Source: Gloeomargarita sp. SKYB120 (GTDB lineage: Bacteria; Cyanobacteriota; Cyanobacteriia; Gloeomargaritales; Gloeomargaritaceae). From it: DNA of 64,000 nt. The stretch lies in contig JANXAM010000006.1 in NCBI GenBank assembly GCA_025062155.1, positions 1 to 64,000 on the forward strand, given 5' to 3'. How positions within the stretch are numbered: position 1 is the stretch's first letter; each line of letters starts with the position of its first letter. Position numbers and translations under genes: made by a program. Of the stretch, positions 45,944 to 52,402 are shown piece by piece. A model generated the notes under the pieces. That model did no database searches, was not told where the DNA came from, and saw only the letters and a program-made list of their open reading frames with translations.

Positions 45944-46020
45944 TTCCCTGGTTCCTGACCTTGACAGAACCCCTAGCTCCTGGCTAGTCTGAAGCTGGCT
46001 GTCTGCAAGGATAGCGCGGT

Positions 46021-46638
46021 ATGACCGAGCGCCTCACTCGCGAGCAGTTGAACCAGCTCATTGCCGAAGTGCAGCGTATTGCAGACCGCCAGCTCGATAC
46101 CATTGGCCTTGCCCAGGCTAGGGAAATTCTCAGGGAACTCAATCTGCCCGATGACCTATTAGAAGAAGCCCTGCTCCAAATCCGACGTCGCCAGGCGGCC
46201 AAGCAGCAGCAATTGCTAAACCGGCTGGTTGTGGGCGGCGTTGCGTTATTTTTGGCTGTGGCCATTGGGGGCTATGTTTACCTTGAACGACGAAAGGAAA
46301 GCCTGATTGCCAACGTCCGCAGCCAAGCCGCCCAAGTGACCCTAGCGCAACGGCCCGAGCAACCTGTGCAGGTGGTGATGCGCCCCAGCGAGGTGGTCTA
46401 TCGGGTCACGTTGGTGAATGCGCCCGTTGGTCAAAAACTCCCGATGGCTTGTGATTGGGTCAATCCCCAAGGCACGGTCGTTCACCAGAATCGTTATCAA
46501 ACCAAACAAATTAGCACTCCACTTTGGAATACCCGTTGCCGGTACCGGCTGAGCACGGCGGATGCCACCGGCCTCTGGACGGTCAGGATGTATGTCAAAG
46601 ATCGGCTAGTCTCGACCACTTCCTTTGAAGTCCGGTGA
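46021..46638 (+). CDS. Single-pass membrane protein, first gene of the 46-51 kb operon (205 aa)
   Basis: Not assigned to a characterised family. Cytoplasmic N-terminal helical part (EQLNQLIAEVQRIADRQLDT), one membrane helix (LVVGGVALFLAVAIGGYVYL) and an outer domain with CDWVNPQGTVVHQNRYQTK and WNTRCRYRLSTADATGLWTV, where two cysteines may form a disulfide. A beta-rich extracytoplasmic domain is likely. Its TGA overlaps the ATG of the next gene, which links it to the following enzymes, though the protein also looks like a generic cyanobacterial hypothetical. Confidence 0.8.
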   Translation: MTERLTREQLNQLIAEVQRIADRQLDTIGLAQAREILRELNLPDDLLEEALLQIRRRQAAKQQQLLNRLVVGGVALFLAVAIGGYVYLERRKESLIANVRSQAAQVTLAQRPEQPVQVVMRPSEVVYRVTLVNAPVGQKLPMACDWVNPQGTVVHQNRYQTKQISTPLWNTRCRYRLSTADATGLWTVRMYVKDRLVSTTSFEVR

Positions 46639-48296
46639 TGCAGGTGGCCGTTAGTCCAGCAGGCTTCCTCGGGGCTTGGGGTGCCGACCTCCAGGACCTG
46701 CTGGCAAAGCAGCCTGACCATGCCTGGCGGCTCCTGCAGGTGCAATCCATTGGTCTAGACGCAGGCCAAGGCATCGTCCAAACCGGCGGTGAGGCGTGGG
46801 CAAACGCAACAGGCACCACTTTAACACTGGGGCGGCATCCCTTTGGACGGGTCACCTTGTACTGGTATCAGGGCGAGAAAGGTCTTTGGTTTGCGACACG
46901 CTGGCGCTGGTTGACACCCTTGGTCACCCCTGAAATAGACCCCTTAGCTGTCTATGGCTATGCCTGCTTTTCTTACGTGCCAACGCCGTGGACCCCTTAC
47001 AAATCCATTCGAGCCATCGAAGCCGGCTGGCAATACACGTGGGAAGCGGGAAAGTTGACCAGCCAAAAAGCGTCTCCCGTGTTGGCTGATTGGCACGAGC
47101 AGGCTGACCCTTTAGCTGATGAAGCCATTGCCGTTCAGGAGTTGCGAGACCTGCTCGAAGAAGCCGTTGCCCGCCAGACCTGTGACCTCCACCAGAAAAC
47201 GGTGGGAATTTTGTTATCGGGGGGCTTAGATTCCTCCACCATTGCGGTGCTGCTAAAGCGCGCCGGCCTTAAAGTCCGCGCTTACACGTTAGATTTCGGT
47301 TCATACGGCATTTCTGAAATGGCCTATGCCCAAAAAGTCGCCCAGCATTTGCAGATTCCCTTGGTCAAGGTTGAATGCTCACCCCGCCGTGTCAAGCAGT
47401 CGCTCAGTGCCGCAACCAAAGCGCTCGATTTACCCTATGGCGATGGCGTTTGTATTCCCCTATGGTTGCTGTATCAAACGGCGCGACAAGAGTGCGAAGT
47501 CTTATTCAATGGCGAAGGGGGTGACCAGTTATTTGCTGGCTGGACAAATAAACCTCTAATTGCCGCCTACGTTTATCAGAACCAGCCTGTGTCTTTTGTT
47601 GACCAGTATCTCCAAACCTTCCATCGTTTGTGGGGCTACGGCCCAGCAGTTTTCGCGCCTTCCTTTTGGCAACAAGTTAAACATTGGTATCCGGGCGATT
47701 GCTTACAGGATGCCCTAGCCGGAAAGGGTTCATTTTTGGCTCGCTTGCGACGGGCAACGTTGATGCTCAAAGGTGCGCAAAATATCCATCCCCGTGCAAC
47801 CAACCTTGCCCTGGCATTGGGGTTGCGCTTGCGCTCTCCTTTCTGCGATGAACACTTGGCGAAATGGGCCTTTACGGTCAAGGCAGAACTATTCTTGCGG
47901 GGGGCCTGTGAAAAGTACATTTTGAAACGAGCGGTTGAACCTTGGTTGCCGGCAGAAGTGGTCTGGCGAGAAAAACGGGGGATGGGTGTGCCCTTGACTC
48001 AATGGTGTTTGGGACCTTTGTGGCGCGATTTGGGGCAGTGGTTAAATCCTAAACGCCTAGAAGCAGAAGGAATTTGGCGACCGGATTTAGCAGCCAGGGT
48101 GGCCTTTGGTGGCTTGGGAAGTGAGTTGCGCAAACGACGCATCGGGGAAATTTTATGGCTGCTTTTGGCTTGGCAATGTTGGCGCTCTCAATTGGGCGAG
48201 ATTCGCCAGGGAAATAGCTGGTGGCATCCCTTTGTGCTCCCTTACGAGTTCTGGCGTCGTACAGGTTTATATCGCTGCTGGAGAGACTCCATATGA
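46638..48296 (+). CDS. Asparagine-synthetase-like protein lacking the glutaminase cysteine (copy 1)
   Basis: 552 aa. C-terminal AsnB-type ATP-pyrophosphatase domain is intact by motif: PP-loop SGGLDSS (194-200), DLPYGDGVCIP and FNGEGGDQLFAGW. The N-terminal class II glutaminase-like domain remains (GRHPFGRVTLYWYQ) but starts MQVAVSPAGF, without the catalytic Cys2 of MCGI. So glutamine hydrolysis is unlikely; such proteins include beta-lactam synthetases and lasso cyclases, which form amides with other amines. It overlaps the gene before (TGATG) and after (ATGATGA). Confidence 0.88.
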   Translation: MQVAVSPAGFLGAWGADLQDLLAKQPDHAWRLLQVQSIGLDAGQGIVQTGGEAWANATGTTLTLGRHPFGRVTLYWYQGEKGLWFATRWRWLTPLVTPEIDPLAVYGYACFSYVPTPWTPYKSIRAIEAGWQYTWEAGKLTSQKASPVLADWHEQADPLADEAIAVQELRDLLEEAVARQTCDLHQKTVGILLSGGLDSSTIAVLLKRAGLKVRAYTLDFGSYGISEMAYAQKVAQHLQIPLVKVECSPRRVKQSLSAATKALDLPYGDGVCIPLWLLYQTARQECEVLFNGEGGDQLFAGWTNKPLIAAYVYQNQPVSFVDQYLQTFHRLWGYGPAVFAPSFWQQVKHWYPGDCLQDALAGKGSFLARLRRATLMLKGAQNIHPRATNLALALGLRLRSPFCDEHLAKWAFTVKAELFLRGACEKYILKRAVEPWLPAEVVWREKRGMGVPLTQWCLGPLWRDLGQWLNPKRLEAEGIWRPDLAARVAFGGLGSELRKRRIGEILWLLLAWQCWRSQLGEIRQGNSWWHPFVLPYEFWRRTGLYRCWRDSI

Positions 48297-49477
48297 TGAA
48301 CACCGAGTTACTCCTAAAACTGCTCGATATCTACGGGTCACCCTTATACGTCTATGACGCTGAACATTTTTGGCAAATGCTCCAGCGCATTCCCCAGCAG
48401 GTGGGCTATAAGCCAACGACCTACTGCTTTGCTGCCGTGACCAATGGTAGTTTAGCACTTTTGCAACTGGTGCGACGGGCGGGCTGGAGTATTCATGCCA
48501 ATACACCAGGTGATATTTATCTAGGACTAAAGGCCGGTTTTTTGCCTGAACAAATTGTCTATAGCGGCAGCAATCTTAGCCCCGCCGATATGCAACAGGT
48601 GTTGGCCTGGGGTGTAACGACTTTCAACTTAGACAGCGTTGCCCAGGTGCAACAGCTCTGTGAATTGGCTAAAGACGTCCCCTGTCTGCAATTAGGGCTA
48701 CGTTTAAATCATCCCCCACTGACGGGTGACAGCCGCATTGGTGTGCAACCCCATGAGTTTCCCGAAGCCGTTGCGATTGCGCGTCGGTACAACCGTTCTA
48801 TCCAAGGATTGCACTTTTATCGAGGTACAGGGACAAATGCTACCCAAGCATTCATTGCCGTCATTGATCAGCTACTAGAGATAGGAAGAAGCTTACCTGA
48901 CTGGAAATACCTGGACTTTGGTGGAGGTTTTGGGTACCCCTACCGGCACGGCAAGGTGGTATTTGACTGGCAAGCGTTTGGACAGGCGCTATCACAAGCA
49001 CTCAACGGGACAGGAATTCATCTTATTCTTGAGCCAGGACGCAATGTGATAGCTGGCTGCGGCGTCTTACTTACCACGGTTGTATCCGTCAAATACCAGG
49101 GAGAAAAGCAAATTGTTGGGGTAGATACGACCATTGCTAACCTGACTGCTCCGAGTGTCTATGGCGACTATCGCCAGATCATTACCCTGAACAAAAACGG
49201 TGTGACTCTCCCAACGGATGTGTGTGGAAATACGACCTACTCACGGGATTACTTAGGAAGAAACATGGCATTGCCTCCCCTGGAAATTGGAGACCGGTTA
49301 GCCATTTTGGATGTAGGGGCCTATGGATATGCAATGGCGTCTCATTTTCTTCATCGTCCAAAACCCGCTGAAGTTTTAGTCAAAGGTGAACACCATTTCT
49401 TGATTCGAGAGCGGGAAGACTACAGCGTTCTTTTATCCAACCAGTGCAATATGGAGCAGGCTTATGCGTTGTATTAA
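48293..49477 (+). CDS. Fold-type III PLP decarboxylase-like protein (LysA-like) without catalytic lysine
   Basis: 394 aa. It keeps the diaminopimelate/ornithine decarboxylase scaffold: YGSPLYVYDAEH, LDFGGGFGYPY (GGG 210-212), LILEPGRNVIAG (247-250) and the C-terminal GAYGYAMASHF. But the PLP Lys is Val49 (FAAVTNGS where FAxKACSN-like is expected), the PLP-stacking His is Tyr176 (HFYRGTG) and the Cys-Glu of the second active-site strand are Thr315-Tyr316. Normal decarboxylation cannot be expected. It may bind a phosphate ligand or act as a partner of the AsnB-like enzyme, with which it overlaps by 4 bp. Confidence 0.85.
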   Translation: MMNTELLLKLLDIYGSPLYVYDAEHFWQMLQRIPQQVGYKPTTYCFAAVTNGSLALLQLVRRAGWSIHANTPGDIYLGLKAGFLPEQIVYSGSNLSPADMQQVLAWGVTTFNLDSVAQVQQLCELAKDVPCLQLGLRLNHPPLTGDSRIGVQPHEFPEAVAIARRYNRSIQGLHFYRGTGTNATQAFIAVIDQLLEIGRSLPDWKYLDFGGGFGYPYRHGKVVFDWQAFGQALSQALNGTGIHLILEPGRNVIAGCGVLLTTVVSVKYQGEKQIVGVDTTIANLTAPSVYGDYRQIITLNKNGVTLPTDVCGNTTYSRDYLGRNMALPPLEIGDRLAILDVGAYGYAMASHFLHRPKPAEVLVKGEHHFLIREREDYSVLLSNQCNMEQAYALY

Positions 49478-50786
49478 CTGCGGAACAAACAATAACCTGC
49501 GCGACCGCCAGGCTAATCAGGGCCGGTGCAAGCAGTGCGGAACGCCCTTTGCCTTTGAGCCAACTGATATGCCGTTGAATTTCCGGCTAACTGACCTGGC
49601 GTTTCAGCGAGTGATAGGGAAACTCTCAGCTAATGGTGCTCTGTGTTTCACAAAAAAGCAACTGTACTATGAGCTGTGCCGGTTAAAGGAAAGGCGTGAT
49701 AAGGTACCCGAATTTCTCTTTGTCATTGTTTGGATTATTTCATTTTTTATTCTCCTTGGACCACTTCTGATTATCTTATCTGTAATTGCTTTTCTAGGCC
49801 ATTTCAACTTCGATTTTCTAGTATATGCAATCTATCCAGTATATGCAGCTTCTCACTTCATAGGCCTGTGGTTTGCCAGTCAGGACCTGAAGCATTCCCG
49901 TCGCGACCGACTGGCTTATGCCTATTGTCTCATAGCCCTTGGGTTTATTTTGCTTATTTCCGGCGGTGCGAATATGCAACAGTGGTTTTTGATGGTTGTT
50001 CTAATGATTTTTGGTGTTGGTGCTATAAGTTTAGGTTCATGGCAAGCCAGACGGATTCCTAATACACCCGAAGCACCGCCGTCCCTAACCCAGGAACTAT
50101 TCAACTCTCTTATTGACCGCTGGACAAGAGCGCATGGGCCGCTGGATAAGTTACTGCCAAGGGCTACGAAAAATGATTTTGCCACTGCCTTGCCAGCAGC
50201 CGATGTGACCAACTACAGCTTTGACCGGTTGATTGTTTGCCAGAGTGACGACATTGCCAAAATGCTTCTGGCGAATAACTTTCACTTTGAATACAACAGT
50301 GGCGTTGTCAGTATCAAAGGCTATCCGTCCAGCATCTTTGATACAGTGATGACGATGGCCAAACGCAATCCTGATCTCAAGGTCTTTGTCTTGCATGACT
50401 GTAGCCCGGAGGGAATACGCACAGTGCATCGGGTTAAACAGAACCCCCGCTGGTTTGGGCAGCAAAATGTGACGGTGATTGATGCTGGGATTTCTCCCCG
50501 CCAGGTTCTGTCAGCGCGACGACCAATTTTCTGTTTATCGAGTGATGAGATGCAGCGGGATTTTTTGACCTTGGCTAAAGAGATTCGAGACACGTTAACC
50601 CCGGCTGAGCAGCGATGGCTTTACGCCGGCAATTACATTCCCCTTGAGTTTTTCAGACCTGAGCAGATTATCAACCTGCTAAGCCGCAGTATCCAACTCA
50701 CTCTGCAGGTGAGCAGGGTTGAGGAGGACGAGCCCTTAATCGCTTTGGGTGATAGTGGGATTTATGTCGTTGATACGTTTGGTTGA
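49464..50786 (+). CDS. Zinc-ribbon membrane protein of unknown function (440 aa)
   Basis: Not recognised. Residues 1-30 form a zinc ribbon (CINCGTNNNLRDRQANQGRC then KQC). Four hydrophobic segments lie between about 85 and 195. The C-terminal 240 residues are soluble with alternating strands and helices: DRLIVCQSDDIAKMLLANNF, GVVSIKGYP and KVFVLHDCSPEGIRTV, an acidic loop that recalls Toprim or Rossmann-type sites, then RRPIFCLSS. A role in handling a ligand or nucleic acid at the membrane cannot be told apart. It overlaps the LysA-like gene by 14 bp and looks AT-richer than the flanks. Confidence 0.8.
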   Translation: MRCINCGTNNNLRDRQANQGRCKQCGTPFAFEPTDMPLNFRLTDLAFQRVIGKLSANGALCFTKKQLYYELCRLKERRDKVPEFLFVIVWIISFFILLGPLLIILSVIAFLGHFNFDFLVYAIYPVYAASHFIGLWFASQDLKHSRRDRLAYAYCLIALGFILLISGGANMQQWFLMVVLMIFGVGAISLGSWQARRIPNTPEAPPSLTQELFNSLIDRWTRAHGPLDKLLPRATKNDFATALPAADVTNYSFDRLIVCQSDDIAKMLLANNFHFEYNSGVVSIKGYPSSIFDTVMTMAKRNPDLKVFVLHDCSPEGIRTVHRVKQNPRWFGQQNVTVIDAGISPRQVLSARRPIFCLSSDEMQRDFLTLAKEIRDTLTPAEQRWLYAGNYIPLEFFRPEQIINLLSRSIQLTLQVSRVEEDEPLIALGDSGIYVVDTFG

Positions 50787-52402
50787 AATGAGCGATGTTG
50801 TTGAAGCCAGAGTTCTAGGCTTGCTAGTAACCATAGCTTCACACCGTAGCGTCGCCAGGGGTCGCCTTGATAGTCCAACCATGACTGGATGAGATGGGGC
50901 TGCAGGTAGGCGGAAATAGCTGCATGTTTTCCCAACAATAAATCCCTAGCCTGCCGGTTCCAATACTTCTGAAACCCTAGTTGTACCGGCACCATCATCC
51001 CGCTTTTTGGACGGTGAATGATCTCCGGTGGCAATAGGGATTGCATGGCGCGTTTGAGCACCGCTTTTTCTTCGGCGCCCGCAACCTTACATCCCACCGG
51101 AATCCGCAGGCTAAAATCCACCACGCGCCGGTCAAATAAGGGCGACCTTCCTTCTAACCCCACCGCTCCCAACAAGTTATTCACTTTGGTTAGGATGTGG
51201 TCAGCACCCTTGAATTTGATGTTGATCAAAAACAAACGCTGTAGCAACTCCATATCTCTGTGCAAGTCATCGGCGAAAAAGAACGGAGCATTTTTAACTT
51301 CAGCCCAAACATCTGGTTTGAGTAATTGGGACAAGTCGTCAAAACACTTTTGGAAGGAACGGGCGTAGTGACTCACGAGAGAACCGCCGTAAACCTGACT
51401 GAGTAACATGGGCTGGTTTTTCGGACCGCCAAAACAGGGGTCGCCTCCTTCACCGTTCAAAATCAAAGAAACGGAGGACTTGGCAAATCTGGCCAGTCGT
51501 AGATTGGGCACGGTTAACGGGTCGCCAATCGGGTCATCTAACTCGGCCATTGTTTCCGGCAAGTAGTCCCACATCTCCCGGAAAGAAATTTCCAACGGGC
51601 GATGCTCTAGCCCGTACTGCTGCGCCACCAGGCGAGAAAAGAACAGTTCATTGGGTACTTCCGAACCGAAGTGAATCGAATAACAAATCACCTTGCCGCT
51701 ATGAAGTTGAGCGCTTAAGGCGGTGACAGCACTGGAATCAATTCCCCCCGAAAGAAAAATCCCCACCTTGTCGTGGCCCATTAATTTTTCTTGCACAACC
51801 TGCTGCAAAAGCTCCAGCAACTCCTCTCCGTAACGCTCCACATCCCGGGCATCTGCTGTCGGGGGAACCCGCGATTCGGGTTGCCAAAAGATGCTCGTTT
51901 CCTTTTGGGGGAGACGCAAAACGGTTCCCGGTCGCAGCTCCTGCACTTCTTGCCATAGCGTCTGGCTACCCGGCACAAACGCACAGCATAGATAATCCCG
52001 CAACGCCACGAGGTTGATTTCCCCGCTGTGATAGGGCCGCAGGGTTTTTAGGCGCGGCGCAATCCAGGTTACGCGCCCCTGGTGGGTGTAGTACAATGTC
52101 CGACCGCCCACCCCATCCCGACACAAGTACAGCACTTGGTCTTGCCGGTCCCATACGACTAGGGCGAAAAACGCAGTGATGGAGTTGAGAAGGCTAATTC
52201 CGTGCTGTTCCCAGCCGTTGGCAATGGTTGCTAGGGAGCACTCACCAGTGGTTTCTCCGACGACGACGTAGCGTTGCGATGGACTCCAGCACAGGGCGGT
52301 TGACGGCCCAAAAAACAGGAACTTGCCTTGGTCATGCCAGGTCGGGGTTGGACTCGTTGGCAGCGCGACCACGCCAAACCCAATCCACCAGGAACGTCCC
52401 AT
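50762..52402 (-). CDS. Asparagine-synthetase-like protein lacking the glutaminase cysteine (copy 2)
   Basis: 546 aa. The PP-loop ATPase domain is present: FLSGGIDSSAVTAL near 238, LDDPIGDPLTVPN and LNGEGGDPCFGG. The N-terminal domain keeps CRDGVGGRTLYYTHQG but starts MGRSWWIGFG, so the nucleophile position is Gly and no N-terminal Cys is available. It is only distantly similar to copy 1 and faces it across 1.3 kb, converging with the zinc-ribbon gene (25-bp overlap). Upstream, the GGDEF/EAL gene ends 5 bp before its ATG. A two-enzyme amide-forming pathway is inferred from proximity. Confidence 0.85.
   Translation of the reverse strand: MGRSWWIGFGVVALPTSPTPTWHDQGKFLFFGPSTALCWSPSQRYVVVGETTGECSLATIANGWEQHGISLLNSITAFFALVVWDRQDQVLYLCRDGVGGRTLYYTHQGRVTWIAPRLKTLRPYHSGEINLVALRDYLCCAFVPGSQTLWQEVQELRPGTVLRLPQKETSIFWQPESRVPPTADARDVERYGEELLELLQQVVQEKLMGHDKVGIFLSGGIDSSAVTALSAQLHSGKVICYSIHFGSEVPNELFFSRLVAQQYGLEHRPLEISFREMWDYLPETMAELDDPIGDPLTVPNLRLARFAKSSVSLILNGEGGDPCFGGPKNQPMLLSQVYGGSLVSHYARSFQKCFDDLSQLLKPDVWAEVKNAPFFFADDLHRDMELLQRLFLINIKFKGADHILTKVNNLLGAVGLEGRSPLFDRRVVDFSLRIPVGCKVAGAEEKAVLKRAMQSLLPPEIIHRPKSGMMVPVQLGFQKYWNRQARDLLLGKHAAISAYLQPHLIQSWLDYQGDPWRRYGVKLWLLASLELWLQQHRSFQPNVSTT

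Follow-up and report, generated by a model that had tools for sequence, protein, structure and literature searches.

A conserved branch of diaminopimelate decarboxylase-like proteins in Cyanobacteria and rhizobia that has lost the PLP lysine and kept the PLP cup

A clade of fold-type III proteins related to diaminopimelate (DAP) decarboxylase, present in Cyanobacteria and on rhizobial plasmids, lacks the lysine that forms the Schiff base with pyridoxal phosphate (PLP) and keeps the residues that surround the cofactor. The cyanobacterial protein is found only alongside two asparagine synthetase (AsnB)-type ligases and a Toprim-like protein ending in Phe-Gly, and usually also alongside a small membrane protein. 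This lysine-less family is either a fold-type III pseudoenzyme family or a repurposed enzyme family. The reading that we favour, tentatively and at somewhat less than an even chance, is that of a branch kept by selection that does not decarboxylate, that would hold vitamin B6, or a phosphorylated ligand resembling it, without a covalent bond, and that would serve the AsnB ligases. In the literature searched we found no description of the lysine-less family or of the five-gene cassette to which the cyanobacterial gene belongs.

The gene lies at positions 48293 to 49477 on the forward strand of the window, the whole 64,000-nucleotide stretch of Gloeomargarita sp. SKYB120 DNA analysed here; its ATG is at 48293, its stop codon ends at 49477, and it codes for a protein of 394 residues. 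This protein matches PF02784 (69.9 bits, cut-off 23.4) and PF00278 (64.9 bits, cut-off 23), and has the fold-type III Orn/DAP/Arg decarboxylase architecture of an N-terminal barrel followed by a C-terminal beta domain. Solved DAP decarboxylases align with it end to end (2p3e, E 8e-45), and a profile built from the lysine-less clade again has DAP decarboxylases as its best matches (2p3e, 5e-64). In these alignments CYAVKAN of DAP decarboxylase faces CFAAVTN, placing V49 at the Schiff-base lysine; GIHCHIGS faces GLHFYRGT, placing Y176 at the stacking histidine; and CETGD faces TYSRD, placing T315-Y316 at the Cys-Glu of the partner subunit. An earlier note on this DNA had proposed these same three replacements, and its numbering proved exact against the solved enzymes; the GGG, EPGR and GAYG motifs that it described as retained are all present. 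In full, V49, H68, D74, Y176, T315 and Y316 replace Lys, Asp, Glu, His, Cys and Glu, respectively, and the substrate arginine is also gone, position 286 being Val or Ala. The LysA model TIGR01048 scores the protein at 243.4 bits, below its curated cut-off of 297.9, and the same genome codes for a separate, intact LysA that scores 468 bits against that model. Its residues predict that the 394-residue protein neither forms an internal aldimine nor carries out the decarboxylation catalysed by its relatives. An AlphaFold2 model from a two-sequence alignment had a mean pLDDT of 45, too poor for inspection of the pocket.

Orthologues have a patchy spread, occurring in 48 of 388 Cyanobacteriia genomes and 29 of 160 genera, and in six further genomes from the same genus as the window none was found. 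V49, Y176, T315 and Y316 are unvarying in all 41-42 orthologues in which the column is present. At the same positions a reference set of 43 PLP proteins has Lys in 42, His in 40, Cys in 39 and Glu in 37; its sole member without Lys is itself a lysine-less protein, L109, discussed below. Residues unvarying among the aligned orthologues are V49, T50, N51, G52, H68, N70, D74, Y176, T315, Y316, D319 and Y344. Non-synonymous change is low (pN 0.14) against a pS of 0.8, at which synonymous sites are saturated. Judging from these patterns, the lysine-less branch is kept by selection and is a conserved protein rather than a broken gene. In two orthologues (L057 and L058) and their relatives, low-complexity stretches up to about 100 residues long are inserted between barrel strands and ahead of the C-terminal domain motif.

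Beyond Cyanobacteria, relatives were looked for among plasmid records, among phage records and in a single scan of genomes by peptide pattern. A scan of viral contigs gave no relative of the lysine-less protein, and matches in the phage collection were just 28-29% identical, those with an annotation being called DAP decarboxylase. Rhizobial plasmids hold lysine-less relatives of about 31% identity, in Sinorhizobium medicae (L109, 31%), Sinorhizobium meliloti GR4 (pRmeGR4a) and Mesorhizobium, with Met for Lys, Tyr for His, and Thr-Phe or Thr-Tyr for Cys-Glu; the SRD motif and the full PLP cup are common to both branches. GenBank labels these rhizobial proteins as DAP decarboxylase or alanine racemase. 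Lysine-less proteins from Cyanobacteria and rhizobia group together (support 100/99) in a tree whose long branches and midpoint root, as drawn, call for caution over the nearest relatives of the group. The earlier note had suggested a family tree as a check on whether the substitutions are clade-wide, and all sampled cyanobacterial orthologues carry them. It had also named a lysine in the site, for example K40, or relatives with an intact site as observations that would speak against its view; K40 is unconserved (R, H, P or other in relatives), and no relative within the clade has an intact site. Its description of the protein as a repurposed scaffold is supported by the loss across the family, by low non-synonymous change where synonymous sites are saturated, and by conservation of the partner genes.

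The rhizobial genes have as neighbours a SPASM radical SAM protein and an ApyD-like B12 radical SAM protein, not AsnB ligases, so that the link to ligases is confined to the cyanobacterial branch. These radical-SAM clusters (L109, L119 and L120) also hold QueA-like, CPBP peptidase, DUF3050 or TldD-related genes, and are possibly peptide or natural-product pathways. In Mesorhizobium huakuii 7653R (pMHb 1399-2934, L122) the L120 gene recurs at 98% identity in four pieces, frame-shifted several times, which reflects either sequencing errors or a decaying copy.

The PLP contacts listed for ornithine decarboxylase (ODC) are R154, S200, G235-237, E274, R277 and Y389 (PMC5518511), and all eight positions are invariant in the lysine-less family, as R137, T179, G210-212, E247, R250 and Y344. 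The residues holding the phosphate, the ring nitrogen and the ring oxygen are all kept. With 54 of 394 columns invariant overall, this enrichment has a hypergeometric p of 8e-8, which is indicative only, since folding, too, constrains glycine motifs. The K36A mutant of YggS still binds PLP, its position almost unchanged, without a Schiff base (PMC9601805), and the lysine is therefore not required for holding PLP in this fold. Because the PLP phosphate and ring cup is fully invariant across Cyanobacteria and rhizobia, a B6-type phosphate ligand would be more likely than an unrelated one, which refines the option of a PLP-independent ligand-binding protein raised in the earlier note. As a counterpoint, GGG and EPGR could have been retained for folding alone.

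In the window the gene is one of five that span positions 46021-52402, adjacent genes overlapping, a membership that the earlier note had missed. The cassette's first gene (46021 to 46638, forward strand) codes for a protein of 205 residues that has a single predicted membrane helix (at about residues 64-89) and whose beta-rich C-terminal domain matches MG2 and DUF3859 weakly, below the cut-offs. It is followed by AsnB1 (46635 to 48296, forward strand), an asparagine-synthetase-type ligase (PF00733) that keeps SGGLDSS, GEGGDQLF and the catalytic lysine; no GATase domain was detected in it with Pfam. Downstream of the lysine-less gene, positions 49464 to 50786 of the forward strand code for a 440-residue protein with a zinc ribbon (CxxC...CxxC) at its N-terminus, some four predicted membrane helices and a Toprim-like domain of the TopoVI-A/Spo11 type. 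The convergent AsnB2 (50762 to 52402, reverse strand) is a second asparagine-synthetase-type ligase with PF00733 and a degenerate GATase_7; its start was set at the ATG at 52402 (M32 of the long open reading frame), on which homology to relatives and the edge of the insertion agree. The PP-loop SGGxDS and the synthetase lysine are invariant in both ligase families, one broken AsnB1 copy excepted, and neither family has the conserved Met-Cys start that would provide the Cys2 glutaminase nucleophile. The missing cysteine is a trait shared with lasso and beta-lactam synthetases, members of the AsnB group that work without glutamine. Of 27 members of the 440-residue family, 25 match PF21180, the Toprim-like domain (best 7e-7), and the catalytic acidic residues of this domain are unconserved; a variable linker leads to a C-terminus that reads Phe-Gly in all 45 orthologues. 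An AlphaFold2 model of the C-terminal domain of this protein, also from a two-sequence alignment, reached a pLDDT of 38.5, too poor for use. Some genomes have two or three tandem copies of the gene.

The five genes and nothing else make up a block at positions 45945 to 52397 that has been inserted here or lost elsewhere. In cassette-free genomes of the same genus the flanking DUF928 and GGDEF/EAL genes adjoin; in one of them (G006) homology to the window ends at 45944 and restarts at 52398. The site is empty in this sister genome, so all five genes came or went together, as one block. The block has a G+C content of 52%, against 60% and 55% in its flanks. Insertion in the window's lineage is the simpler reading, the closest orthologues being Pseudanabaenaceae-like, and loss of the cassette in the other members of the genus is a possible alternative. 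DUF928 is present in all seven genomes of the genus, with extra paralogues in several, and in three of them (G001, G003 and G004) the neighbour of DUF928 is unlike that in the window, so the locus has been rearranged within the genus. PADLOC gave no convincing defence match, and Rfam gave no match inside the block. A RiPP precursor within the block was considered and set aside, because the overlapping genes and the mere 77 bases ahead of the first one leave no room for it.

The same arrangement recurs at otherwise unrelated sites, any further gene family being present in at most 6 of 43 loci, and Gloeothece PCC 7822 has it on a conjugative plasmid. Of the 388 genomes, the 48 with the lysine-less protein are precisely those that also code for the 440-residue Toprim-like partner. 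AsnB1 is present in 47 of these 48 carriers and in no other of the 388 genomes, and in the single carrier without it the lysine-less gene is at the start of a contig. AsnB2, searched for within carriers, was found in 46 of 47; in roughly half of these it lies outside the cassette. The carrier that lacks AsnB2 (G330) also has a broken gene fusion (locus L056), in which residues 1-421 of AsnB1 run in frame into the C-terminal half of the lysine-less protein.

A related locus in Streptomyces sp. NBC_01237 (L139; NZ_CP108509.1, about 1.088-1.095 Mb, in a record almost unannotated) has an AsnB2 relative (40% identity, 7e-94), three tandem Toprim-like relatives, a cupin, and a small membrane protein of 179 residues that itself ends in ...DDDFG; no lysine-less protein is present beside these genes. 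This locus suggests that the pair of AsnB2 and Toprim-like genes is the older core. One of its Toprim-like copies has HDADPLG, and its Toprim acids may be intact.

The lysine-less protein resembles several known systems and differs from each. It shares with LysA (TIGR01048; 2p3e, 1knw, 1hkv) both Pfam domains, the end-to-end alignment and the cup around the PLP phosphate and ring, but lacks the Schiff-base lysine, the stacking histidine, the Cys-Glu and the substrate arginine, and is always beside other genes. YggS/PLPBP (COG0325) likewise has a fold-type III barrel and no known catalysis, but keeps the lysine and is a single barrel without the C-terminal beta domain, whereas the lysine-less protein has two domains and no lysine. 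BtrK and the exosortase-A-associated PLP decarboxylase (TIGR03099) are also LysA-like proteins of dedicated biosynthetic pathways, and TIGR03099 loci likewise carry an AsnB-type amidotransferase, TIGR03108, which is the best NCBIfam match of both AsnB genes of the cassette. Against TIGR03099 itself the 394-residue protein scores 98 bits, with a cut-off of 478, and both BtrK and the TIGR03099 proteins keep the PLP lysine.

Several other explanations have to be weighed against a ligand-holding barrel. That the gene is a decaying or mis-assembled copy of lysA would fit the missing active-site residues taken alone, but the same residues are fixed in dozens of genomes, pN is far below pS, the frame is intact and LysA is coded separately; the alignment of the clade refutes this reading, whose probability we regard as negligible. 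A still active amino-acid decarboxylase holding PLP through another lysine is very improbable. The family does score with DAP decarboxylases, and YggS K36A is able to use other lysines (PMC9601805), but there is no new clade-specific invariant lysine, the sole invariant one (K267) being common in ordinary PLP enzymes too (13 of 15), and the His, the Cys-Glu and the substrate Arg (to Val or Ala) have been lost as well.

Two further explanations carry more weight. The protein might be a pure scaffold that binds no small molecule and acts through protein contact only, as an allosteric or assembly subunit of AsnB1 and AsnB2 or of the membrane Toprim-like protein, in the manner of prozyme or antizyme inhibitor. 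The complete loss of catalytic groups and the strict co-occurrence with AsnB and the 440-residue protein agree with this, catalytically dead paralogues that activate a partner are well known, and AZIN1 is an ODC-derived pseudoenzyme of the fold-type III decarboxylases, without catalysis, that does not bind PLP (PMC6313458). AZIN1 is nevertheless the mirror image of the present family: it has lost the cup, with Arg277 changed to Ser and Tyr389 to Asp (PMC6313458), whereas the lysine-less protein has lost the lysine and keeps R250, Y344 and six more cup residues invariant. This counts against the scaffold, because one free of ligand should let some cup residues drift, and we consider it unlikely, although the strongest of the competing accounts. 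Less likely again is a lysine-free enzyme that uses PMP or PLP non-covalently, with Y176, Y316 or H68 as acid or base, as a fold-type III counterpart of ColD/E1. The ring-nitrogen Glu (E247) and the phosphate cup are invariant, and so are the new polar residues H68, N70, Y176, R177, Y316, R318 and H351 of the pocket region; but the rhizobial branch differs at H68 (C/F), R177 (V/F) and D74 (H), and since these are unshared, the family as a whole has no one general base in common. ColD and E1, furthermore, are fold type I PMP enzymes in which Lys became His, whereas in these fold type III proteins it became Val or Met.

Under the favoured reading, the barrel would hold a B6 vitamer or similar phosphorylated ligand non-covalently, as a cofactor, a presented co-substrate or a signal, and the protein would serve AsnB1 and AsnB2 as putative glutaminase-less adenylating ligases that form an amide on a carboxylate. 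More speculatively, the acceptor carboxylate might be the -FG C-terminus of the Toprim-like protein, and PMP might be the presented amine. What counts for the favoured reading is the clade-wide fixation of the replacements and their sharing with rhizobia, the invariance of the cup, the low pN, the separate LysA, the co-occurrence, the five-gene block, the intact synthetase motifs, the -FG terminus and the precedent of YggS K36A. Against it stand the radical-SAM context in rhizobia, the Streptomyces locus with AsnB2 and Toprim-like genes and without the lysine-less protein, and residue 49, which is Val or Met and not the His of lysine-less PMP enzymes. The most specific form, a new B6-handling protein whose lysine-free barrel presents PMP or PLP to the AsnB ligases, with the amide perhaps formed on the Toprim-like -Phe-Gly, is a long shot; if it were true, the cassette would be a protein- or metabolite-modification system in a five-gene transferable block.

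The analysis brings to light a clade, in Cyanobacteria and on rhizobial plasmids, in which the PLP lysine is lost and the PLP cup kept, and whose members are publicly annotated as decarboxylases. It offers a natural test of the role of the pocket of this superfamily without a Schiff base, and the co-inheritance of the five genes, together with the invariant C-terminal tail, makes both partner and substrate directly testable.
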